Source of the DNA: Veillonellaceae bacterium
GTDB lineage: Bacteria; Bacillota; Negativicutes; Veillonellales; Negativicoccaceae
Assembly (NCBI GenBank): GCA_022771805.1
Contig: JALELM010000020.1
Coordinates: 1 to 64,000 of the forward strand
Reading direction: 5' to 3'
DNA: 64,000 nt
Shown here: positions 21,460 through 36,908 of the stretch, piece by piece
Position numbering within the stretch: the stretch's first letter is position 1
How the letters are laid out: each line of letters starts with the position of its first letter
Program-made: the position numbers and the translations under genes
Notes under the pieces: model-generated
Databases searched by the model: none
Told to the model about the DNA's origin: nothing
What the model saw: the letters and a program-made list of their open reading frames with translations, nothing else

Positions 21460-21532
21460 ATACAGTTGTTGAAATATGCACGGACAGGACGCAGAATATG
21501 ATAAAATAGGCATATGTGAAAGGAGGCTTCCC

Positions 21533-22297
21533 GTGTACGCTTTTTTGACGGATCTCGGCCGGACAACGCTATATATCTTTGCGCAGATCGGTGCGACCGT
21601 ACAGCTGTTGGTTGCGGCCTGGCGGCGCGTGGGGCAGGCTTCCCGGCGCCAGACTGTCGAGCAGATGTACCTGCTCGGTGTCGGGTCATTCCCGATTGTT
21701 GCGCTGACCTTACTGTTTACGGGAATGGTTATGACCTTGCAGATTGCTTCCGAGTTGTCGCGATACGGCGCGGAGTTTTCCATCGGTGCCATCGTTTCGT
21801 TTGCGCTCGGGCGCGAGTTGGGACCGGTGCTGTGCGGTGTCGTGCTTGCCGGGCGCGGCGGCGCGGCAATTACCGCCGAGCTGGGCACGATGAAAGTCAC
21901 GGAACAGATTGATGCATTGCGCTGCCTGGCGACGGATCCGGTCACCTACCTGGTAGTGCCGCGGATGCTTGCCTGTATGTTGATGCTGCCCTTGCTGAAT
22001 GTGCTCGGTCTGGTCATCGGCGTATTCGGCGGGATGTTGGTATGCACATTGGTGAACGGGATTTCCGCGTATACGTTTTGGCATTCGATCGAAACCTTTG
22101 TCGGGCCGAGCGATGTCTACCTCGGCATGATCAAGACGATCATCTTCGGCATGATTGTCGCGGTCGTAGGCTGTCAGCGCGGGATGACTTCACGCGCAGG
22201 CGCGGCGGGGGTCGGAAAAGCGACGACACAGACGGTGGTATATTCGATTATCATGATTTTTGCGGTCAACTACTTGTTGTCCGAAATTCTTTTTTAG
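21533..22297 (+). CDS. mlaE: MlaE-type lipid ABC transporter permease
   Basis: 254 residues from GTG 21533, which follows AAAGGAGG; the earlier in-frame ATG at 21476 has no ribosome site. Membrane permease of the Mla phospholipid system. Seen: FPIVALTLLFTGMVMTLQIASELSRYGAE, FALGRELGPVLCGVVLAGRGGAAITAELGTMKVTEQIDAL (the MlaE hallmark), and C-terminal helices. First gene of mlaE-mlaF-mlaD-tolC-tamB. Confidence 0.95.
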   Translation: MYAFLTDLGRTTLYIFAQIGATVQLLVAAWRRVGQASRRQTVEQMYLLGVGSFPIVALTLLFTGMVMTLQIASELSRYGAEFSIGAIVSFALGRELGPVLCGVVLAGRGGAAITAELGTMKVTEQIDALRCLATDPVTYLVVPRMLACMLMLPLLNVLGLVIGVFGGMLVCTLVNGISAYTFWHSIETFVGPSDVYLGMIKTIIFGMIVAVVGCQRGMTSRAGAAGVGKATTQTVVYSIIMIFAVNYLLSEILF

Positions 22298-22305
22298 AGG
22301 TGGCC

Positions 22306-23049
22306 ATGCTTGAATTGCGAGATGTGACTGTGCGTTTCGGCGAGCGGACGATTTTGGACGGGGTGAACCTGTGCGTGCGCGAGCGGGATACGCTGGTAAT
22401 TCTCGGGGCATCCGGCAGCGGTAAGTCGACGATTTTGCGTGTACTGATCGGGCTGGTGCGGCCGACTGCCGGACGGGTATATATCGGCGGTGAAGATGTC
22501 ACGGATTTCAGCGAAGAGGAATGGAATCGGGTGCGGGAAAAGATGGGCTTCGTCTTCCAGTATTCCGCGCTGTTCGATTCCATGACGGTAGGGGAAAACG
22601 TGGCATTTGCTCTGCGCCGGCGCGGCGGTCTGAGCGAAGCGGAAATCGCCGCCCGGGTAGCGGAGAAATTGGAGTTGGTCGGTTTGTCCGGCCGCGAGTA
22701 TCTGTTGCCGGAAAATCTGTCCGGCGGGATGAAGAAGCGGGTCGGCCTGGCCCGCGCGATCGTCACGGATCCGGCGGTGGTACTGTATGACGAACCGACA
22801 GCGGGTCTGGATCCGATTCGCTCGGCGACGGTGGATCGGCTGATCCGCACGGCGCAGGAGCGCCTGCACACGACATCCGTCGTGGTGACACATGAACTCG
22901 CCTCGGCTTGGCGAGTGGCGGATCGCTTGGCGTTTCTGCATCGCGGCAAGTTTATTCTGGAAGGGCCGGCGGCAACGTTTCGGACGACGACGAATTCGGT
23001 TGTGAGAGCGTTTTTGGACGGAGACGAAAGCGGGGAGGAAACGGAATGA
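22306..23049 (+). CDS. mlaF: MlaF-type lipid ABC transporter ATPase
   Basis: 247 residues. Drives MlaE. Seen: Walker A GASGSGKST, Q-loop FQYSALFDSMTVGENV (typical MlaF), signature LSGGMKKRVGLARAI, Walker B VVLYDEPTAGLDP, H-loop VVTHEL. The start ATG 22306 follows GAGGTGGCC. Its stop overlaps the mlaD ATG (ATGA). Confidence 0.95.
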   Translation: MLELRDVTVRFGERTILDGVNLCVRERDTLVILGASGSGKSTILRVLIGLVRPTAGRVYIGGEDVTDFSEEEWNRVREKMGFVFQYSALFDSMTVGENVAFALRRRGGLSEAEIAARVAEKLELVGLSGREYLLPENLSGGMKKRVGLARAIVTDPAVVLYDEPTAGLDPIRSATVDRLIRTAQERLHTTSVVVTHELASAWRVADRLAFLHRGKFILEGPAATFRTTTNSVVRAFLDGDESGEETE

Positions 23050-24164
23050 AGTGGAATACGGAGGCGAAGGTCGGCGCATTCACCCTGGCGGGATTGATTG
23101 TGTTGGCAATTGTACTCGCACAACTTTCGAGTCTCGTCCTCTTCGGGAAGAAAGGGTACATCGTACACGGTGTTTTCCCCGAGGTCGGCGGTCTCGTGAC
23201 CGGGAATGCGATTCGGTACCGCGGGGTGGAAGTCGGCCGCGTGGACGAGGTGCATTTTACCGGCACGGCGGCGGCGGTCGAGATGCGTATCTATGACGGG
23301 ATCGGGATCCCGCGCGATGCACAATTTGCCGTTGACTCCGAGGGTATTTTGGGAGAAAAGTTTATTCGCATTCAGGACGGGAATCCGGCAACCGGCCTCC
23401 TGAAGGAAAATGATACCGTGGCGGGTGGCCTGCCGATCGGCATGGATGCGCTCGTCCGCCAGACCAATGAACTGCTGGTCGATACGCAGGCGACCTTGCG
23501 GGCGGTGCAGGGGATCGTTGCGGATCCCGAACTGCAGCGTTCCTTGCGGGCAACCATTGCGAATGCGGAAACCGTTTCCGGACAGATGATCGGTCTGACC
23601 GCCACCTTGCAGACGTTGGGCGATCGCCTGGATGCCGTAGTGTATCGCTTGGACGGCGACGGCCGGCTTTCTGCGGACGTGCGCGCCATCGCGGAGAATT
23701 TCCGGGTGAGCAGCGAGCGCATCCGGCGGGTGGCCGGCGGCGTGGGCGGTTTGCGGGACAAAAAGTTGCAGATGCCCGGGCAATGGGAAGTGTTGTATAA
23801 TACAGATAAGCATCGGACGTCACTTAACGCACAGTGGCGGATCGGCGCGGAAGGAAATTCGGGCTTCGGTGTTGTCGGCGTGGAAGAATTCGGCAACGGC
23901 TCGTTGTTTGATTTGCAACTTGGACGGGAAAGAGGGCCGTTCGGTTTGCGTGCGGGATTGATTCGCGGCAAAGTCGGTGTCGGTGCGGATTACCGGATCG
24001 GCGCGACGGCCTGGACACTGGATGTATATGATTTGGATGAGCCGGAATACCGTTTCCGCGGGAACTGGCACATCAAAAATGACTGGTCGCTGGTCGGGCA
24101 GGCCATCTTCCCGAGGGGGCATGAATACGGCGGCAATTATTTCGGTATCAACCATACGTTTTAG
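23046..24164 (+). CDS. mlaD: MlaD-like MCE protein with C-terminal beta-barrel-like domain
   Basis: 372 residues: N-terminal membrane anchor (about 10-32), one MCE domain (about 38-115, FPEVGGLVTGNAIRYRGVEVGRV ... GILGEKFIRI), a long helical stretch (about 135-235), then about 125 residues of alternating aromatic/hydrophobic strands ending in Phe (NYFGINHTF), as in outer-membrane beta-barrels. MlaD of Veillonella parvula is known to have the same MCE-helix-barrel layout, bridging both membranes. So this protein probably forms a one-piece envelope bridge, replacing MlaA/MlaC, which are not seen here. Confidence 0.9.
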   Translation: MKWNTEAKVGAFTLAGLIVLAIVLAQLSSLVLFGKKGYIVHGVFPEVGGLVTGNAIRYRGVEVGRVDEVHFTGTAAAVEMRIYDGIGIPRDAQFAVDSEGILGEKFIRIQDGNPATGLLKENDTVAGGLPIGMDALVRQTNELLVDTQATLRAVQGIVADPELQRSLRATIANAETVSGQMIGLTATLQTLGDRLDAVVYRLDGDGRLSADVRAIAENFRVSSERIRRVAGGVGGLRDKKLQMPGQWEVLYNTDKHRTSLNAQWRIGAEGNSGFGVVGVEEFGNGSLFDLQLGRERGPFGLRAGLIRGKVGVGADYRIGATAWTLDVYDLDEPEYRFRGNWHIKNDWSLVGQAIFPRGHEYGGNYFGINHTF

Positions 24165-24181: not shown

Positions 24182-25696
24182 ATGAAGAAGTTGGAATCGC
24201 TGCTGACGGCAGCATTGGTATGCGGTACGATGTGTGCGGCGGTGCAAGCGGCCGAGATGTCCGCAACGGCAGAGCCGATCCGGCTCGGGATGCCGGTGCA
24301 GGCGGAGCAGCCGGTGGTACGGCTGACGTTGACCGAGGCGGTAAATCGTGCGCTGGCAACGAACTATGCCATCGGGATTGCGGCGGAAAAACAGGCGCAG
24401 GCGGCCGCTCAGGTCAGCGAAGTGGCGGCGAATAAGAACCCGTCTCTCAGCTATAGTTTCGGCACATCCAAATTCAAAGAGCAGATGCAGACGGTCGGGA
24501 TCCCGATCGATCGGGTGATGCCGGGCGCGAGCGCAAATATCGAGGCCGCTCTGGCGGGATTGCCGCTGGATGCACAGACGCTCGCGCTGCTGAAACAGAC
24601 ATCGTTTTGGCAGCAGCTGAACACGATCCCGTATCGAGTACAGGTGGATCACGGCTACCAGAACAGCGTTTCTCTGAAGTGGCCGTTATGGACGGGCGGT
24701 CGTGTCGAGCACGGCATCGAGGCGGCTCGCATCGGCCGAGACGTCGCCGAATGGGAAGTGTACAGACAGGAAGCGGATGTGAAATACCAGGTTACCGAGG
24801 GGTTTTACAAGCTGATCGAGGCTCGGAATCTGCTGGCGATCGCGGACGAAGCCGTTGCGAATCTGCAGGAACATGTGCGGATCGTCGGCGCCCATTATGA
24901 TGCCGGCACGGTGGCGAAAATAGACGTATTGAGTTCGCGTGTCGCGCTGGCGAATGCACAGGAACAGCAAATTCAGGCGCAAAACGGTACCGATCTCGCC
25001 CGGACGAACCTGAATACCTTACTGCGCCAGCCGACAAACACCCAAATCGAGCCGGTGTCCGATGATACGGAATTGGAACCGTTGAACCGAACCTTGCCGG
25101 AAGCGATCGCGTATGCGGATACGCATCGTTGGGAATTGCAGCAGGCGCGCTTGGCCGTACAAGCGGCCAAAGAACAGCTGGGGGTCGCCAAGGCCGGTTA
25201 TCTGCCGACGGTTGCCGTTCAGGCGAGCATGAACTGGCAGGATCGGGACTTCCCGGGCTTCAAGAATGAAGATTGGAGCGTGGCGGGCGGGATCAGCTGG
25301 TCGCTCTTCGACGGCGGCGCGACGGGGGCGAAGGTCACCGGTGCCAAGTCCGCCGTGCGTGAAGCCGAGCTGACAGCCGAGCAGGCCGCGGCAAATATCG
25401 AGCTGGATGTGACGAATGCATATCTTGCGACCGTGGCGGCGGAAAAACGGATCCGTACGACAAGTGAAGCGGTCAATGAAGCGCTGGAAGCGTACAAGAT
25501 TGCCACCGTCCGGTATCGCGCCGGCGTCGGCATCAACTTGGACGTACTGGACGCGCAGTTGAAACTGAATCAGGCGCGGACGAACTACGTTACGGCCCTC
25601 TATGACTACCATGTCAGCATGGCGCGGCTGGAACAGGCGATAGGGGTACCCGCTGCGGAACCTACGCCGGTACGACCCGTCGACACCGAACGCTGA
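24182..25696 (+). CDS. tolC: TolC-family outer membrane efflux protein
   Basis: 504 residues with signal peptide (about 1-23, cleavage after VQA). Seen: LTLTEAVNRALATNYAIGIAAE at the start of the mature OEP repeat, a second repeat with TLPEAIAYADTHRWELQQARLAVQAAKEQLGVAKAGYLPTVAV, and a long alpha-helical C-terminal hairpin. It lies between mlaD and tamB with short gaps, so it is co-transcribed with the lipid transport genes. The inner-membrane partner may be the HlyD/ABC exporter at 48.6-52.2 kb, but that is a guess. Confidence 0.92.
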   Translation: MKKLESLLTAALVCGTMCAAVQAAEMSATAEPIRLGMPVQAEQPVVRLTLTEAVNRALATNYAIGIAAEKQAQAAAQVSEVAANKNPSLSYSFGTSKFKEQMQTVGIPIDRVMPGASANIEAALAGLPLDAQTLALLKQTSFWQQLNTIPYRVQVDHGYQNSVSLKWPLWTGGRVEHGIEAARIGRDVAEWEVYRQEADVKYQVTEGFYKLIEARNLLAIADEAVANLQEHVRIVGAHYDAGTVAKIDVLSSRVALANAQEQQIQAQNGTDLARTNLNTLLRQPTNTQIEPVSDDTELEPLNRTLPEAIAYADTHRWELQQARLAVQAAKEQLGVAKAGYLPTVAVQASMNWQDRDFPGFKNEDWSVAGGISWSLFDGGATGAKVTGAKSAVREAELTAEQAAANIELDVTNAYLATVAAEKRIRTTSEAVNEALEAYKIATVRYRAGVGINLDVLDAQLKLNQARTNYVTALYDYHVSMARLEQAIGVPAAEPTPVRPVDTER

Positions 25697-25712: not shown

Positions 25713-28700
25713 GTGAGAGGGTGGCTTTTAACGGCGGCGGCGGTGGCGGTTATCGGTGCCGGAGCAGGCCAATGGGTGCTCAAACCGATGGCGCTGGAGG
25801 CCGCGCCGGAGCTCATTGCGCAGGCGGCCGGAGAGAATTTGAACGGGACGCTCGTCTATCGCGATTTGGCAATTGATTGGCTGGGAAATCCCCGGCTGAC
25901 GGGAGTCGAATTGCGTGATGCGGCCGGGCGGACTGTGGCGACGATCGCCTCGACCGAAGTGAGCTGGAGTTTCTGGCGCGTGCTGGAATATCTGGCGGGC
26001 TATCGGCCGGCCGTCGGCGTGGTAGACGGAATTACGCTGAATCGGCCGGAAGTGTATCTGCGGGAAGAGGCGGATCGTTCCTGGAACGTGTCGCATCTTC
26101 TGCGGACTTCGGATACGCCGACGGAAATGGATTTGCGGGCAAAAATTATCATCAACCACGGCACGGCTCATTTGACTTTCTTGGATGAGCCGGTTTTGCA
26201 TGTGCAAAACATAACGGCGCGGCTGGATTTGAACAAGTACCCCGAAATCGGCGGCGATGCCGATATGACATATGAAGGTCGCCCGTTGTCGGTCGGCGGC
26301 TTCTATACCGAAGCAAATAATTTCGGCGTACAAATAACGGCGGAACGCCTGCCGCTGACCTGGCTGGAACGCTTTTTGCCGGAACAGGCTGCGGAATTGC
26401 GTGTCCGCGGCGGCGAAATACGGAATGTCCGCGTCCATGTCGCCGGTACGCCGCACGGACTCGACTACCGCGGCACGGGCGAGGCGGTCGATGTCGCTTT
26501 GGTCTATGACAACTATGAAGTACGGCATTTGGCGGGGAAAATACAGGCGGAAACGGGGCAGGTCGCATTCAGCGAAACAAGCGGTCTGGTGAATGATCAA
26601 CCATTCCGCGCACAGGGGACGATCGGTTTGGTCGCGGATCCCGTTTTGGCTTTGGATATTTCGACGGAGGGCATGGAAACCTCCCGCTTGTACGACAGCG
26701 GCCTGACCGGCTTGCTGGCGGCGAAAGTACATATTGGCGGGACCGTGGTTCGTCCCGTGGCGGAAGGCGTAGCGGCGCTGGCCTCGGGCGCATACCGGGG
26801 AACACCGTTGCAACGCCTGTTTGCGCGTTTCGTCTATCGTGACGGCGTGGCGACACTGCCGGACGTGGCGGCCGGCCTGGGGCAGGGGAATGTCCGGGGC
26901 AGCGGTTATTATAATTTGAAGACGGGTAGCGGCGAATTCGGCTTGCGGGCGGAAAACGCCGATTTGTCATATGTTCCCGTGGCGGACGGTGTAAGCGGTA
27001 CGGTAAACGGCTCGGGAACCGTACGGCTCGCCGCTAATGATTTGGCGGAGATACGGTTCACCGGTCAAGGGAGCGACTTTGCCGCGGCGGGGCTGGTTGC
27101 GGACAGCTGGACGGGGAGTTTCGGCTATCGCGACGGTTGGTATGTAGATTATCTTAACGGTACAATGGGAGGCGGTACGTTTACGCTGTCCGGCAAGGAG
27201 CGCTCGGCCGAGGGCTTTACCTTTGCGGTGCAGGACATACCGTTGGCGTATATAAGCGGAGTGGCCGGCGTGCCGGCGACGGGGACGCTTTCCGGCGCGG
27301 GAAACTGGACCGGCGGGATCGATTCGCCCGTCGTCACGGCTAATTTCGCTGCAAGCGACGGCTCGGTTCACGACCTTGCCTTTGAGCGAGTGACGGGCGG
27401 TTTGCGTTATGCGGCGGATCGACTGCAGCTGGATGATGTCGTCTGGCTGGATAAGGAAGGCTATCACCGCGTGGACGGCAGCGCCGGTTTAGGCGAAAAC
27501 GCACCGCTGGATTTGCGTGTTCGCAGTGAGCGCGTGCGTCTGGAAGATTTGTTGCGGGCGGCGGACTTGCCGGTGGAAGCGACGGGCTGGGCGGAACAGG
27601 AAATGCACGTGACCGGAACCTTGCAAGCGCCGCTGACGACGGGACATGTGCGTCTGTATGACGGCTCCGTCTTCGGTGAGCTGTATCAGGAAGCCGTCGC
27701 CGATTATCGCTACGGCGGAGATACGCTGTATCTCGATACGGCGACGGCGCATGTATATAACGGCACGGTGACCGCGCAGGGAACTGTTCACGCGGACGGT
27801 ATGCAGGTTGCGGTGCAGGCGCGGCATATTGATGTGGATCGTATTCTGCGGGAGAAGAACAGCTATCGCCTGCAGGGGTATGTGGACGGGGAAGGAAGCC
27901 TGAGCGGCACGCCGAGCGATCCCGAACTGCATTTGCATTTTACGGGAACGGATATGAGCGTCAACGGCGAACCGGTGGAACGGGTAAGCGGCGACCTGGC
28001 GTATCGCGGCGATCAAGTCGTCCTCGAACGGGCGGAAATTCAGCAGCGTGACGGCAGTTACCAGGTCAGCGGTCGCTACAATTGGCGAAGCGGCGAGGTT
28101 GTCGGCCGCGGCCGCGTTACCGGCGCGGAGCTGGCTACATTGCTGCGTTGGGCGGATGTGCCCGTGGGCAATCTTACGGGGCGCCTGGAAGGCCAAGTGG
28201 AAATAGCGGGCAATCTGGACGATACGCGTTGGAGCGTGACCGGTGAGCTGCATGAAGGCGCGGTCGACGGGAAGCCGATCGGTATTACCGAGCTGGATGT
28301 CAGTTATCGTAACCGGGTGTTTGATGTCCGCAAATTGCGGATGCCGATCGGTGACGGTTTGCTTGCGGCGCAGGGCAGCGCGGCATTGGACGGCGATATC
28401 GACTTGCAGGTAGCGGCACGAAAGGTGGATGTATCCTACTTGCCGGCGTTGGCCGGCCGGGAACTTGACGTAACCGGATTGTTGGACGCCAGCGCCGTTT
28501 TGCGCGGTAAAACCGCACGCCCGGAAGCGGATATTTCTTTCGATTGGTCGCAAGGCAGCTATGCCGGAGCACAGTTCGACCATTTGCTCGGGCTGCTTAA
28601 TTTGCGCGATAATATCATTGAAGTAAATCAAACCTTGCTGCAAAAAGAACAATACCAAATGAGCGTGTACGGCACCGTGCCGCTGGCGGCGCTGACCAAG

Positions 28701-29966
28701 CACGGCCGGGCACAGGGCGGCAGCGATGAGATGAATCTGCAGTTCCGCTTGGACAAAGCGGACTTGGATCTGTTGCGGGCGTTTTCGCCTTACATCAAAA
28801 CCGCAAGCGGTGAAACGCGCGGCCGGGTCACCGTGACAGGAACGTTGGAAGATCCGCTGATCAACGGACGAATCGACATCCCGACGGGACGGATGACGGT
28901 GGAAACAATGAAAAACCCCGTTGAAGATATTCGGCTGGCTATCCAATTCACCGGCAGGGAAGCGACCTGGAAACTCGGCGCAAAAATCGGTGACGGGACG
29001 GCGGAAAGCGAGGGTACGTGGAGTCGGACGCAAACGGCGGCGGGATACTCCGGCCGTTTGCGTGTGAAGGACGCCAATCCGCGCAGCACCTATTTCGACG
29101 GGCCGTTGCAGGCGGACTTGGAACTGGTTTCGCAGGCGGGAGTACCGTTGGTACGGGGAAAAATCGACCTTGCCGACACGAAGTTGGACATTCCGCTCGC
29201 GGTATCCGGCGACGGAGAGTTGCCGCTGATCTATCTCGATATCGATGTGCATCTCGGCGATAAAGTGCGCTTGTACAATTCGTACCTGTATGACCTGCAA
29301 TTACTCGGCGACGTCCATGCGGGAGGCTCGACACAAGACCCGTCGATGAGCGGCAAAGTGGAAGTACAAAAGGGCTACCTGAAGTACCTCAGCAACAAAT
29401 TCCGCGTGGAACTGGGTGTGGCGGATTTCACCGGCGGCGAGGGTTTCCTGCCGAACTTGAGCGTGGAATCGTCAACCAAGTTCAATCGCTACCATATCCG
29501 CCTGAATGCGACGGGGCTGCCGACGGATTTGCGCGTGGATCTGAGCTCCGAGCCGAGCCTTTCGCAGGAGGAGATCGTTACGATGCTCACCTTGCACACG
29601 CAAGGCGATATCAACGACCTCGGCAGTGAGGCGGCCAATGCGGTGCTCGCCTCCGCGGCGCAGATGTTGATCCTCGGCTCGCTGGAAGGGCGCTTGCAAG
29701 ATGTGCTCGGTTTGGATATGATTCATATAACGACGGGATCGATCGATCCGTTCGAGACGACGACGGTCGCCAATCAAAGTTTCTACAATTTGGAAATCGG
29801 AAAGTATCTCTTCGACGACTTCATGTTTGTCCTGACGACCGGTGTAAACAACGATCAGAAGAGTGTCGGCTTCCGGTATGATTTGAGTCAGAATTTCAAC
29901 GCTACGGCTTGGCGCAATGATGAGGGGAATTACTACGTGGGCGCCAATTGGCAGTATCGTTTCTAG
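25713..29966 (+). CDS. tamB: TamB-like AsmA-family translocation/lipid transport protein
   Basis: 1417 residues from a GTG start behind a GGGGG site. An N-terminal membrane anchor (about 3-20) is followed by a very long run of beta strands, with the conserved DUF490/TamB domain in the last 350 residues (VEVQKGYLKYLSNKFRVELG, FLPNLSVESSTKF, LSSEPSLSQEEIVTMLTL). Such proteins form a periplasmic lipid-conducting groove between the two membranes. No TamA partner is next to it; in Negativicutes TamB is thought to work with BamA. It sits in the Mla operon, which supports a lipid transport role. Confidence 0.94.
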   Translation: MRGWLLTAAAVAVIGAGAGQWVLKPMALEAAPELIAQAAGENLNGTLVYRDLAIDWLGNPRLTGVELRDAAGRTVATIASTEVSWSFWRVLEYLAGYRPAVGVVDGITLNRPEVYLREEADRSWNVSHLLRTSDTPTEMDLRAKIIINHGTAHLTFLDEPVLHVQNITARLDLNKYPEIGGDADMTYEGRPLSVGGFYTEANNFGVQITAERLPLTWLERFLPEQAAELRVRGGEIRNVRVHVAGTPHGLDYRGTGEAVDVALVYDNYEVRHLAGKIQAETGQVAFSETSGLVNDQPFRAQGTIGLVADPVLALDISTEGMETSRLYDSGLTGLLAAKVHIGGTVVRPVAEGVAALASGAYRGTPLQRLFARFVYRDGVATLPDVAAGLGQGNVRGSGYYNLKTGSGEFGLRAENADLSYVPVADGVSGTVNGSGTVRLAANDLAEIRFTGQGSDFAAAGLVADSWTGSFGYRDGWYVDYLNGTMGGGTFTLSGKERSAEGFTFAVQDIPLAYISGVAGVPATGTLSGAGNWTGGIDSPVVTANFAASDGSVHDLAFERVTGGLRYAADRLQLDDVVWLDKEGYHRVDGSAGLGENAPLDLRVRSERVRLEDLLRAADLPVEATGWAEQEMHVTGTLQAPLTTGHVRLYDGSVFGELYQEAVADYRYGGDTLYLDTATAHVYNGTVTAQGTVHADGMQVAVQARHIDVDRILREKNSYRLQGYVDGEGSLSGTPSDPELHLHFTGTDMSVNGEPVERVSGDLAYRGDQVVLERAEIQQRDGSYQVSGRYNWRSGEVVGRGRVTGAELATLLRWADVPVGNLTGRLEGQVEIAGNLDDTRWSVTGELHEGAVDGKPIGITELDVSYRNRVFDVRKLRMPIGDGLLAAQGSAALDGDIDLQVAARKVDVSYLPALAGRELDVTGLLDASAVLRGKTARPEADISFDWSQGSYAGAQFDHLLGLLNLRDNIIEVNQTLLQKEQYQMSVYGTVPLAALTKHGRAQGGSDEMNLQFRLDKADLDLLRAFSPYIKTASGETRGRVTVTGTLEDPLINGRIDIPTGRMTVETMKNPVEDIRLAIQFTGREATWKLGAKIGDGTAESEGTWSRTQTAAGYSGRLRVKDANPRSTYFDGPLQADLELVSQAGVPLVRGKIDLADTKLDIPLAVSGDGELPLIYLDIDVHLGDKVRLYNSYLYDLQLLGDVHAGGSTQDPSMSGKVEVQKGYLKYLSNKFRVELGVADFTGGEGFLPNLSVESSTKFNRYHIRLNATGLPTDLRVDLSSEPSLSQEEIVTMLTLHTQGDINDLGSEAANAVLASAAQMLILGSLEGRLQDVLGLDMIHITTGSIDPFETTTVANQSFYNLEIGKYLFDDFMFVLTTGVNNDQKSVGFRYDLSQNFNATAWRNDEGNYYVGANWQYRF

Positions 29967-29979
29967 TGTGGTGAGATCT

Positions 29980-30609
29980 ATGTTGCAAGCGTACTTACAA
30001 GCGGTCAGTGAAATCGAACTGTTGACGCCGGAGGCGGAGCAGGCTCTTTGGCAAGCCTATGCCGCCGGTGACGGAACCGCCCGCCAGGAGCTGATCGAGC
30101 ATTATCAGCCGCTGGTGGTGAAAGAAGTGGTACGCTTCCACGGCCAAGAGGCATTACTTCTGGATTTGGTGCAGGAAGGTGCGGTCGGTCTGATGGAGGC
30201 GGTGGAACGCTACAACCGCGAGCGGGGCGTCGCCTTTTCCCTGTTTGCGAAGCATCGGATTCGCGGCCGGATGTTGGACTATCTGTATAAAAACGGTCAC
30301 GATATCCCCGTCCCGGAAGAGTCCTGGGCGGCAGGCAGGGAACGTTTCGACGGACTGCTGGCAGCTGCGGAAGATGCGTTTGAGATAACCGACCGCAAGC
30401 TGCTGTGGGAGCAGGTGCGTAAAGCGGTATTACGCCTGCCGGAAAAAGAAAGGCTGGTCGTTGCGGGTATTTATCTCGGGGAACGCGAACCGAAGGAAGT
30501 TGCGGCAGAAATGTCCTGCAGCAAGGCCTATGTCTACAAATTGCAAAAAACGGGCATTCGGCGTTTGCGCGGCATGCTCAGTCGCGTAATGCAAGAACGG
30601 AAAGAGTAA
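29980..30609 (+). CDS. Sigma-70 family RNA polymerase sigma factor
   Basis: 209 residues from ATG 29980, 13 bases after tamB. Region 2: LVQEGAVGLMEAVERYNRERGVAFSLFAKHRIRGRMLDYLY. Region 4: LRLPEKERLVVAGIYLGEREPKEVAAEMSCSKAYVYKLQKTGIRRLRGML. Shape resembles FliA/SigB-type factors rather than ECF factors: region 2 is of the FSLFAKHRIRG kind and a region 3 linker is present. No anti-sigma gene adjoins it unless the next membrane protein plays that role (speculation). Its position in the envelope cluster hints at control of envelope genes. Confidence 0.85.
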   Translation: MLQAYLQAVSEIELLTPEAEQALWQAYAAGDGTARQELIEHYQPLVVKEVVRFHGQEALLLDLVQEGAVGLMEAVERYNRERGVAFSLFAKHRIRGRMLDYLYKNGHDIPVPEESWAAGRERFDGLLAAAEDAFEITDRKLLWEQVRKAVLRLPEKERLVVAGIYLGEREPKEVAAEMSCSKAYVYKLQKTGIRRLRGMLSRVMQERKE

Positions 30610-30730: not shown

Positions 30731-31270
30731 ATGGCATTATCCAAGGAAGAACTTTGTGAGCGCGTACGTTCCACTCGCACCTGGCTGGAAAAAGCGGAGC
30801 GGGCATTGCACGGACGCACGCCGTGGCAAGGTGAACTGCAGCTGATGCTGGCTCAGGCGGAAATGCAGAAACTCCGTGAAGCGCGTCGCGGAACATTGTA
30901 TGACGAACGCTACTGGCAGCGCGGTTTGGCGGCCATGGCGGCCGTGCTGCTTTGCGCCGGTGTTTGGTGGTGGCAGCAGCCGGCCGAGGTACCTTCTGCG
31001 GCGACGGCGCCGCTCCCCGTGCGGGAAGCAGCGGTGCCGCAGCCGCCCGAGGTGAAAGAACGCTCGCTCGAGCCGATCGGCAAAGCGGCGGAACCGGTTC
31101 CCGTCGAACCGGAGCCGGCGGCGATTGCCGCCGTACCGGCCGCTCCTCCGCGGGAGGAGGCGGTAACGGCGGAACCCGTCGTGCAGCATGCGACACCGGT
31201 GGCGCTCAGCCCCGGTGAATTGCAGGCGGCGGTTGCCGATGCGGCGCAGACCTTGCGTAAGGGTCGATAA
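30731..31270 (+). CDS. Single-span membrane protein with Pro/Ala/Glu-rich tail
   Basis: 179 residues; the ATG follows AAAGGAGG. A charged cytoplasmic N-terminus (about 1-65, helical), one membrane segment (GLAAMAAVLLCAGVWWW, about 66-82), then a low-complexity Pro/Ala/Glu/Val-rich periplasmic stretch. No catalytic motif. TonB-like linkers look similar, but the TonB C-terminal domain is missing. Sits between the sigma factor and bamA. Function unknown; an anti-sigma or envelope spacer role cannot be excluded. Confidence 0.7.
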   Translation: MALSKEELCERVRSTRTWLEKAERALHGRTPWQGELQLMLAQAEMQKLREARRGTLYDERYWQRGLAAMAAVLLCAGVWWWQQPAEVPSAATAPLPVREAAVPQPPEVKERSLEPIGKAAEPVPVEPEPAAIAAVPAAPPREEAVTAEPVVQHATPVALSPGELQAAVADAAQTLRKGR

Positions 31271-33617: not shown

Positions 33618-33643
33618 CATTGTTTTAGGAAATGAGGAAGGCT

Positions 33644-34921
33644 ATGCGACATGGTCGAGTTGCCCGTGTATTGGCAGCCGTTGCGCTGGCCGGCAGTCTG
33701 CATGCGGCGGCATCGGCTGCGCCGATCGAGCAGATCGAGACGGTTCTGCATACGCCGCAGGGGACGCCGCAGGCTACGGTTACGGAGCGTATCCGGGCGG
33801 GAGTGGAGGTCATTGCGCAGCACGTACTCGCGGCGAAAGACAGCGAGGAAGTGGCGGCGCAGCGTACCGCGTACGGCCGACTGATAGCGGATGTGGCGGG
33901 GCGCGTCGTGGCGGGATACATCGTTCTGGATGCGGAGGTCACGCCGGGCGCGACAACCCGGATCGATTTGACGCTGGTGCCTTACGGCAAGCTGGTGGAA
34001 GAGGTGGAAACGACCGTCGATTACGGCAGTCTCAGCGCGGAGGCGCGCGCACTGGTCGCCGCCGAACCGGCACTTGCCGGCAATCGGGCGGAAGAATTGC
34101 TTGTCGGCTTGCCGCTCGGTGCATTGGACTGGGTGGGCAGTATAGCGATACCGATCTTGCAGCATGAAATCGAATCGCGCCTGCCGGAGTTTACCGCACA
34201 GATCGTGATCGAGCCCGAGCGCAGGACAGCGGTACGAATTTACCTCATTCCTCGCGGTGAAACCGTGCGGACGACAACGGTCGAGATCACGGGTGAAGAT
34301 ATTCCGTACCTGTTTCTGAACGGGGCGGCAAGCCGGGTGGAGGAGTGCCTGGCTGATTATGTCGGCTTACCGACGGCATACGTGGCGCGGCAGCAGGAGG
34401 CGATCGAATCTCGTCTGGCGGCTGCGGCGACAGCGGACGGTTTCGTGCGGCGCTATGATATTCACCCGACGGGGAAACTGTATCCCGGTGCGGATTTGCG
34501 ATATGACCTAACCGCAAAAACAGGCATGTGGGTCATCGGTGCACAAGCATCTCTCGATCTCGGTAAAGACGAAAAAAATATGCATTTGCGGGCGGAAATC
34601 GGACGGCGATTTACCTCGCGTGATATAATTTACTTACGAACGGACTTTTTCCCGCATGCCGTGGAGTGGGATGTGTATCTGGGGTACACGCATCGCTTCG
34701 GCACGGGAACACGTCTCGGCTGGCAGTATGAGCTGACCGAGCGCCGCCGGGAAGTATTGGCGGAACAGGATCTCGGCGGACGCTGGTACCTGCGCTGGGA
34801 GCACGACTTGACGAACGAAGAGGATACGGGTGCCGTCGGCTATCGTTTCCGCGACCGGCTCCGCGCGGAATATGTGGTTACAAATACGGAGCAATGGTTG
34901 CGGCTGACCGGCCGCTTGTAA
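33644..34921 (+). CDS. Unrecognised outer membrane protein following bamA
   Basis: 425 residues from ATG 33644 (GAGG six bases upstream; ATG 33632 is an alternative). Signal peptide ending AAASAA. The middle (about 55-260) alternates strands and helices, including VRIYLIPRGETVRTTTVEI, reminiscent of POTRA-like repeats; the last 130 residues are amphipathic strands rich in Tyr/Trp/Arg (LRAEIGRRFTSRDIIYLRTDFF, WDVYLGYTHRFGTGTRLGW) that look like part of a barrel. The final residues WLRLTGRL do not show the usual terminal Phe. I do not recognise the family; it may be a Negativicutes-specific partner of Bam. Confidence 0.7.
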   Translation: MRHGRVARVLAAVALAGSLHAAASAAPIEQIETVLHTPQGTPQATVTERIRAGVEVIAQHVLAAKDSEEVAAQRTAYGRLIADVAGRVVAGYIVLDAEVTPGATTRIDLTLVPYGKLVEEVETTVDYGSLSAEARALVAAEPALAGNRAEELLVGLPLGALDWVGSIAIPILQHEIESRLPEFTAQIVIEPERRTAVRIYLIPRGETVRTTTVEITGEDIPYLFLNGAASRVEECLADYVGLPTAYVARQQEAIESRLAAAATADGFVRRYDIHPTGKLYPGADLRYDLTAKTGMWVIGAQASLDLGKDEKNMHLRAEIGRRFTSRDIIYLRTDFFPHAVEWDVYLGYTHRFGTGTRLGWQYELTERRREVLAEQDLGGRWYLRWEHDLTNEEDTGAVGYRFRDRLRAEYVVTNTEQWLRLTGRL

Positions 34922-34940: not shown

Positions 34941-35444
34941 ATGATGCGAGCTTTGCGTAATGAGCACAATGTCAAAACGGTGTCGTTCATCGTCGCCGTG
35001 GTATTTGTTTTAGGGATTGCGGCCTATGCCCTGATGGGTTCGGGTAATATTGCCCAAGCGGCACCGACTTCGTCGATCGGCGTGGTGGATCAGTCGATGA
35101 TCATCGAGCAGACGGCGACGCTCGGCCAACAGTTCCAGGAACAGATGGCGGCGGCCGCAAGCGAATTGCAGAAAGAGTTTGACGAAAAATCGGTCAATAT
35201 GTCCGAGGCGGAAAAGCAACAGTATTTCCAGTCGATGCAGGAAAAATTCAGCGCCAAACAGGCTGAAATCCAAAAGAATATTCAAGGTAAAATCGACAAT
35301 GCGGTAAAACAGGTCGCAGAAAAGAAAAGTCTGAACCTGGTTGTCGATAAAAATGCCGTGCTCTATGGCGGTGTCGACATCACTTCGGAAGTGCAAACCG
35401 CGTTGAATGCGGCGCTGGAAAAAGAAGCCGCAGCGAATAAATAA
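34941..35444 (+). CDS. OmpH/Skp-like periplasmic chaperone (copy 1)
   Basis: 167 residues with an N-terminal membrane segment (about 14-35) that serves as signal or anchor, then IGVVDQSMIIEQ (the usual OmpH start of the core), a long Gln/Glu/Lys-rich coiled coil, and the OmpH tail KSLNLVVDKNAVLYGGVDITSEV. Skp proteins hold unfolded barrel proteins on their way to BamA. First of three consecutive related genes; its stop overlaps the next ATG. Confidence 0.9.
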   Translation: MMRALRNEHNVKTVSFIVAVVFVLGIAAYALMGSGNIAQAAPTSSIGVVDQSMIIEQTATLGQQFQEQMAAAASELQKEFDEKSVNMSEAEKQQYFQSMQEKFSAKQAEIQKNIQGKIDNAVKQVAEKKSLNLVVDKNAVLYGGVDITSEVQTALNAALEKEAAANK

Positions 35445-36403
35445 TGCGAAGTCGAATGAAAACGGGCGTTACCGGTTGCTTGCTGCTCGGCACGCTGTTG
35501 CTGAGCGGGTGCGGTATCGGTGGTTGCGGTCGGACGGAAGCGCCGGCGCAGGAACCGGTATATGCCGTCGCCGATACGGAGCAATTGTTCCGGGCGCACC
35601 CGGACTATGCAGTCTATTTAGAGGCGGAAGAAGCGTATCGCAACTTGGCGGCGGAGTACGAGGCAGACACGCAGCGACTGATTCACACGGCGGCGCAAGC
35701 GGAGCGCGAATTGCATGAGCAATTGAGCTCCGGGGCGATCGAAAAAGAGTTGAATGAAAAATTCCGCGCGAGCATGCAAGTCCGTGAGGCGGAATGGAAT
35801 ACGAAACTCGAGCTGCTGTATCGTGAATTGCTGCAGAATGCGGACGAGCCGCTGCCGCCGACGACGGAAACGGATCTGCGCATCGTCAATTTGCAGTTGC
35901 AGTTGCGAGCCTTGCAATTGAGCGCGGCGGAGCGCCAGGAGAAAGAAGAAGAACTGGCGGCGCTCCTGGCCGGAAAAACCGCTGCAATGCGGCCGGAAGC
36001 GGAGTTGGGAGCGGAAGCACAGGCGCGTCTGGCGGCGCTGAAAGCGGAAGCGGAACAGGATCTGGAAGCCTATGCGGCGGAGTTGACGGAGACCTTGCGC
36101 GCGGAACGGGACGAGGCGCAACAGCGACTGTACGAAGCGGCGGAGCGGCGTCTGATGCCCGCGGACGGAGAAAGCAGGAATGCCGAGTGGCGGCAACGTC
36201 TGCTGGCGAAGAAAAAAGAACTCACCGAGCGGGAGGACGCCATCCGCAAGGATGTGGAAGTGGCCGCCGCGGCAGTCGGTGAAAGCGAACATATTACGAT
36301 GATTTTCGGCAAGTATCGGACGAATCTTACCGCTCGTGACGTGACGGCGGAGATTGCGACGAAACTGCGCGAAATAAAGGGAGGAAAGCCAAGTGGGACA
36401 TAA
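35444..36403 (+). CDS. Coiled-coil lipoprotein, Skp-like relative (copy 2)
   Basis: 319 residues. Lipoprotein signal with lipobox LLSGC (Cys 23), giving a lipid-anchored protein. The mature part is mostly charged coiled coil (Glu, Ala, Arg, Gln) with VYAVADTEQLFRAHPDYAVY at its start, resembling the OmpH core, and EHITMIFGKYRTNLTARDVTAEIATKL at its end, like the OmpH tail. It is about twice the usual OmpH length, so I call it an enlarged relative. Overlaps the genes on both sides. Confidence 0.75.
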   Translation: MRSRMKTGVTGCLLLGTLLLSGCGIGGCGRTEAPAQEPVYAVADTEQLFRAHPDYAVYLEAEEAYRNLAAEYEADTQRLIHTAAQAERELHEQLSSGAIEKELNEKFRASMQVREAEWNTKLELLYRELLQNADEPLPPTTETDLRIVNLQLQLRALQLSAAERQEKEEELAALLAGKTAAMRPEAELGAEAQARLAALKAEAEQDLEAYAAELTETLRAERDEAQQRLYEAAERRLMPADGESRNAEWRQRLLAKKKELTEREDAIRKDVEVAAAAVGESEHITMIFGKYRTNLTARDVTAEIATKLREIKGGKPSGT

Positions 36404-36908
36404 GTGGTGGTGCCGGGCGCTCGTCGTGAGTATGGCGGCCTTTGCGCTGGTCTTGGGCGGCTGCGGCAGTGAGGACAAAGTCGGTACGGTGGATTTTGGC
36501 CGCATTGCACAGGAAAGCACGCAGGCAAAGCAAATTGCCCAAGATATTCAGGCGAAACAGGCGGAGATTATCGCCCGTCTGTCGGAAGCGGAACAAAATC
36601 AAAGCGCGGAAGAATTTGCCGTGACGGAACAAAAAGCACGGCGTGAAATGCAGATTTTCCAAATGGGCAAGAAACAGCAGTTTGAGGCGTTGGTGGAAAG
36701 CCAAGCGGCCTTGCTTGCAAAAGATAAAAAGCTCAGCATCATCATGCACAAAGATGCCGTTCATTACCAAGGCACGGATGTGACCGAGGATCTGCTCGCC
36801 CGCCTGAAAGCGGCTGCCGATCAGAGCGCAGCGGCACAAAAGGAGAGTGCGGCGGATAAGCAGGAAACGCCGGCCAAGCCGGCAGAACAGCAGGCAAAAA
36901 ATGGTTAA
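36393..36908 (+). CDS. OmpH/Skp-like lipoprotein (copy 3)
   Basis: 171 residues from GTG 36393 (GGGAGGAAAG site). Lipobox LVLGGC (Cys 24). Then VGTVDFGRIAQESTQAKQIAQ, a coiled coil, and KKLSIIMHKDAVHYQGTDVTEDLLARLK, the OmpH-type ending, plus a low-complexity Ala/Lys/Pro/Gln tail. Overlaps lpxD by eight bases. A lipid-anchored Skp-like chaperone, presumably in the periplasm. Confidence 0.82.
   Translation: MGHKWWCRALVVSMAAFALVLGGCGSEDKVGTVDFGRIAQESTQAKQIAQDIQAKQAEIIARLSEAEQNQSAEEFAVTEQKARREMQIFQMGKKQQFEALVESQAALLAKDKKLSIIMHKDAVHYQGTDVTEDLLARLKAAADQSAAAQKESAADKQETPAKPAEQQAKNG

Follow-up and report, generated by a model that had tools for sequence, protein, structure and literature searches.

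A long MlaD protein with a predicted ten-stranded C-terminal barrel in a Negativicoccus relative, orthologous to MlaD of Veillonella parvula

RESULTS AND DISCUSSION

The mla operon and its neighbors

The stretch of DNA that was analyzed (64,000 nucleotides, here called the window) comes from a relative of Negativicoccus and carries, on the forward strand, the genes mlaE-mlaF-mlaD-tolC-tamB in that order. The ABC permease gene mlaE (positions 21476 to 22297; PF02405, E = 1.2e-79; above the cutoff of TIGR00056), the ABC ATPase gene mlaF (22294 to 23049), and mlaD (23046 to 24164) overlap at their ends. The PF00005 match of mlaF (E = 1.2e-33) was obtained on a longer open reading frame that contains the gene, and its best NCBIfam match was MlaF, below the cutoff of that model. 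The gap between mlaD and the gene for a TolC-family outer-membrane factor (24182 to 25696; PF02321, E = 1.3e-62) is 17 bases, and tolC is followed by tamB (25713 to 29966; PF04357, E = 6.7e-36), which encodes an AsmA-like protein of 1417 amino acids. The genes mlaE, mlaF, mlaD, and tolC were found in this order in all 37 of the Veillonellales loci compared. tamB was also present in 36 of them; the one locus without it, L040, is on a short contig that does not reach beyond tolC.

Downstream of tamB are a sigma factor gene, a short open reading frame, and bamA. The sigma factor (29917 to 30609, forward strand) belongs to the sigma-70 family, and the short frame (30731 to 31270, forward strand) encodes a protein with one likely transmembrane helix and no Pfam match. 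Both are retained in Negativicoccus, Dialister, Megasphaera, and some Veillonella, yet neither was detected at the corresponding position in V. parvula or its close relatives. After bamA, a gene on the forward strand (33632 to 34921) codes for 429 residues with a likely signal peptide, a strand-rich C-terminal half, and no Pfam match. Two further forward-strand genes (35444 to 36403 and 36393 to 36908) encode lipobox-like signal sequences (LLSGC and LVLGGC) and adjoin an OmpH/Skp gene; the product of the first is itself a weak OmpH match. These proteins are of interest because no outer-membrane lipoproteins have been identified so far in V. parvula (PMC10665443).

Domain architecture of MlaD

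The mlaD reading frame translates into 372 codons with no internal stop and was the sole MCE gene found in the genome of the window. Its full-length product was modeled with AlphaFold2 from an alignment of 34 homologues. The model contains an N-terminal transmembrane helix (amino acids 5 to 32; positions 23058 to 23141), the strands of an MCE domain (amino acids 37 to 128; 23154 to 23429), a helical linker (amino acids 129 to 244; 23430 to 23777), and a C-terminal region (amino acids 245 to 372; 23778 to 24161) in which ten strands were predicted within residues 245 to 371. The MCE assignment is supported by a PF02470 match (amino acids 37 to 112; E = 3.3e-19) and by superposition of this part on E. 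coli MlaD (5uw8; VIA-align Z, 16.1; 1.7 Å over 96 residues). The score against TIGR04430, the family of proteobacterial short MlaD proteins, was 77.7 bits, under the curated equivalog cutoff of 135. The initial annotation, which had described an MCE domain followed by a long helix and a barrel-like C-terminal domain, was thus borne out by the Pfam match and the model.

Linker helices were predicted, with low confidence, at residues 134 to 155, 161 to 200, and 208 to 231, and pLDDT was below 50 across most of residues 131 to 237. This region aligned co-linearly with that of relatives. The gap between the second and third helices (residues 201 to 207) contains an Asp-Gly pair (D205 and G206; 23658 to 23663) that was invariant in 34 of 34 sequences. 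A repeat profile located one copy of a helical DP-x-x-Q motif at amino acids 156 to 183 (23511 to 23594), the proximal copy; the distal copy is absent. A 3.4-residue periodicity peak was present in the linkers of several sequences and absent from others.

MCE proteins form hexamers. The assembly to be modeled is therefore a hexamer rather than the trimer that had been proposed earlier.

A predicted barrel of the outer-membrane type

When the last 129 residues of MlaD were modeled alone, the prediction was a ten-stranded barrel with a pLDDT of 95.8 and a pTM of 0.85. A predicted C-terminal fold other than a set of barrel strands had been named beforehand as grounds for refuting the barrel proposal; a set of barrel strands was what the prediction returned. 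The best match of a structural aligner among solved structures was the omptin Pla (Z, 15.3; 2.2 Å over 123 residues), followed by BFA1 and the designed ten-stranded transmembrane barrel TMB10 (Z, 13.1 each), and E. coli OmpT gave a Z of 11.3. Soluble barrels also fitted: ten-stranded nitrobindin reached a Z of about 11.5, nitrobindin-type proteins reached up to 11.8, and nitrobindin and fatty-acid-binding proteins together ranged from 8.5 to 11.8. A Foldseek search with the barrel yielded nothing below an E value of 0.001. The likeness to omptins is one of fold alone, with 7 to 8% identity, and an omptin protease active site in the MlaD barrel is unlikely, given strands of 8 to 12 residues, loops of 2 to 7 residues, and no sequence similarity.

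The fold by itself does not decide between a membrane barrel and a soluble one. Alternation of hydrophobicity in the C-terminal domain exceeded that of shuffled sequences (P of about 0.003 to 0.006), in contrast to the MCE domain (P = 0.54), and most of the predicted strands have a hydrophobic and aromatic face opposite a polar one. The claim that the last 125 residues are alternating strands ending in Phe was upheld by both the predicted strands and the shuffle test. The final residue is Phe, with an invariant glycine (G367) five residues upstream. The number of strands is even, so both ends of the barrel lie on the same side. The loops assigned to the periplasm have 2 to 4 residues; of the five assigned to the surface, four have 4 to 7 and the fifth has 2. 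The barrels of AT-rich relatives are rich in Arg and poor in Lys, and the remainder of each protein is Lys-rich, as in V. parvula MlaD (11 Arg and 5 Lys in the barrel, 6 Arg and 23 Lys in the remainder).

The barrel sequence was conserved across 30 aligned relatives. The barrel was also found in 119 of 120 Negativicutes genomes, with a single match in each that always fell within an open frame of at least the size of MlaD; retention on this scale is far beyond chance. Together these features support the prediction of a ten-stranded barrel of the outer-membrane type.

Relationship to MlaD of V. parvula and other MCE proteins

A protein of the same type, with ten strands, the same operon, and MlaA and MlaC missing, has been described in V. 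parvula, and the arrangement was called conserved in all Negativicutes (Grasekamp et al. 2023, PMC10665443). On fractionation, the barrel of V. parvula MlaD goes with the outer membrane, and mutants in mla show detergent sensitivity and hypervesiculation (PMC10665443). The ancestral status of the bridge is an inference of the same study.

The MlaD of the window is a co-linear, syntenic orthologue of MlaD of V. parvula SKV38 (L069; 419 amino acids), to which it aligns end to end at about 28% identity. The two share the transmembrane helix, the MCE domain, the long helix, and the ten-stranded barrel, as well as the mlaEFD-tolC-tamB operon in a genome in which MlaA and MlaC were not found. They differ in that the linker is 116 residues in the window and 164 in V. 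parvula and in that the window protein lacks the distal DP-x-x-Q repeat and an extra segment before the barrel. The nearest named relative, from Negativicoccus massiliensis (L036; 370 amino acids; 55% identity), belongs to a different genus and has an equally short linker and the same operon; our literature search found no study of it.

Searches of the window genome, which is 95% complete, gave no match to MlaA (PF04333), MlaC (PF05494), or a STAS-2/MlaB-type domain (PF13466), and the positive controls gave matches. The outcome of this genome-wide search for mlaA, mlaB, and mlaC, which had been proposed with the original claim, agrees with its suggestion of a bridge that does without MlaA and MlaC. 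E. coli MlaD, part of MlaFEDB, has the same transmembrane helix and MCE domain but is 183 amino acids long, has neither the long linker nor a barrel, and works with MlaA, MlaB, and MlaC as partners. MpcD of Brucella abortus resembles the window protein in that its MlaD-like domain leads into a long helical extension, which has been proposed as an envelope bridge; unlike the window protein, MpcD has a C-terminal part reported to be alpha-helical and a separate partner, MpcA (PMC12436622).

All features of the V. parvula type that are open to computation (transmembrane helix and MCE domain, helices, barrel, operon, and lack of MlaA and MlaC) are supported for the window protein. By analogy with the fractionation of the V. 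parvula orthologue (PMC10665443), we infer that it may span both membranes. The co-linear alignment, synteny, and orthology support the earlier suggestion of a further instance of the Veillonella bridge. MCE genes were present in 294 of 300 Negativicutes genomes; the window mlaD is a standard gene of this class, and the bridge interpretation holds and is already published (PMC10665443). With these results, the envelope bridge made of one protein that was published earlier gains a further family, and its uniformity across the class is confirmed. No match was obtained when viral contigs were searched with the window MlaD.

Proposed mechanism and alternatives

The window MlaD very probably provides the MCE component of a minimal lipid importer, MlaEFD, that would bridge the two membranes and replace MlaA and MlaC. 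A ring of six MCE domains would sit on an inner-membrane MlaE2F2 ABC transporter, and the helices of the six copies would come together as a hydrophobic tube that crosses the periplasm. The ten-stranded barrels would be inserted into the outer membrane via BamA and anchor the tube there. Stray outer-membrane phospholipids would then return to the inner membrane, inside the tube or along it, at the expense of ATP, and the tube would stand in for MlaA and MlaC. The domain layout, predicted folds, operon, lack of MlaA, MlaC, and STAS-2 matches, and V. parvula orthology were obtained here; the outer-membrane location of the barrel, the retrograde direction, and the antagonism with TamB come from the V. 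parvula orthologue (PMC10665443); the hexamer, the course of the tube, and the way lipid enters it are proposals. Several points weigh against this scheme. The linker pLDDT is too low for the model to show a tunnel, and the linker would reach at most 17.4 nm with 116 residues, versus 24.6 nm for the 164 of V. parvula. The V. parvula authors themselves pointed out that a phospholipid would not fit the narrow barrel and that no ring of six barrels has been described so far (PMC10665443). Soluble ten-stranded nitrobindin also fits the predicted fold.

There is a nearly even chance that the barrel serves as an outer-membrane tether for MlaD rather than as a conduit, in which case lipid would reach the tube straight from the inner leaflet or by way of a different protein. 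This possibility is a refinement of the importer explanation, not an alternative to it. Ten strands with very short loops would suit a tether, and the V. parvula authors judged the barrel too narrow for a phospholipid and noted that most long MlaD proteins have no barrel (PMC10665443). Nothing found here is decisive against a tether, because retention of the barrel across the class is compatible with both functions.

It is improbable that the helical tip of MlaD docks on the neighboring TolC in the manner of MacA, with TolC as the outer-membrane partner. The conserved position of tolC directly after mlaD and the single, weak OEP match elsewhere in the window genome would favor such docking. 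However, MlaD already has a barrel predicted for the outer membrane beyond its helices, and TolC-family proteins in general serve efflux pumps.

Least likely, by a slight degree, is a soluble periplasmic lipid-binding barrel of the nitrobindin or lipocalin kind in the role of MlaC, which the nitrobindin and fatty-acid-binding matches would allow but which fits poorly with the clearly better match to Pla, the Arg-rich and Lys-poor composition, the even strand number with tight turns on one side, the C-terminal aromatic residue with its invariant glycine, and the outer-membrane fractionation of the V. parvula barrel.

Variation in linker length

The length of the linker varies among lineages: 116 residues in the window and 116 to 118 in Negativicoccaceae, 129 to 136 in the Dialister group, 156 to 163 in Megasphaera and its relatives, and 164 to 189 in Veillonella and its relatives. 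The DP-x-x-Q motif, of about 28 residues, occurs once in Negativicoccaceae and the Dialister group and twice in Megasphaera and Veillonella. With a profile trained on Veillonellales sequences alone, the distal copy was detectable in all 31 of the scored loci (27 genomes) outside this order, although in 3 of them the sole distal-repeat match sits nearer the MCE domain (residues 227 to 253). Read from the matches of that profile, this distribution suggests that both short-linker groups lost the distal repeat. The short linker without the distal repeat in Negativicoccaceae and the Dialister group is a small new point.

The reaches of 17.4 and 24.6 nm given above are maxima for a straight helix, and the periplasm of V. 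parvula is 24.2 nm wide (PMC10665443). TamB lengths ranged from 1417 to 1476 and did not correlate with linker length (Spearman coefficient, −0.16; P = 0.36; 33 sequences). OmpM-type (SLH) proteins, considered as an alternative ruler, occurred in many copies per genome with scattered open-frame lengths and gave no clear trend. Because the linker is shorter without a matching change in TamB, the published match between tunnel length and periplasm width is not simply transferable. Two readings fit: a narrower periplasm in the short-linker lineages, or a tube that does not simply span the periplasm by matching its width. A tentative and rather unlikely reading is that Negativicoccaceae and the Dialister group have a shortened bridge that lost the distal repeat while TamB kept its length; the tube may then be under stretch, may bend, or may occur just where the two membranes come close to each other. 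Because linkers vary from 116 to 189 residues and TamB is nearly constant, species comparison is an inexpensive way to test for a straight MlaD tunnel across the periplasm.

An apparent large insert in the barrel of a 705-residue MlaD from Dialister micraerophilus (L035; G006:C1:251885-253993) was rejected, because consecutive N characters in the assembled sequence produce the false frame of that length. Short MlaD proteins have been described as restricted to Proteobacteria (PMC10665443). A second, short MCE protein (about 158 to 178 amino acids; transmembrane helix and MCE domain only) was found in several Dialister-group genomes (genus g4). No ABC partner was seen beside its gene at two loci (L032:7406-7882 and L034:7014-7502), and further matches were present in three genomes (G015, G030, and G036).
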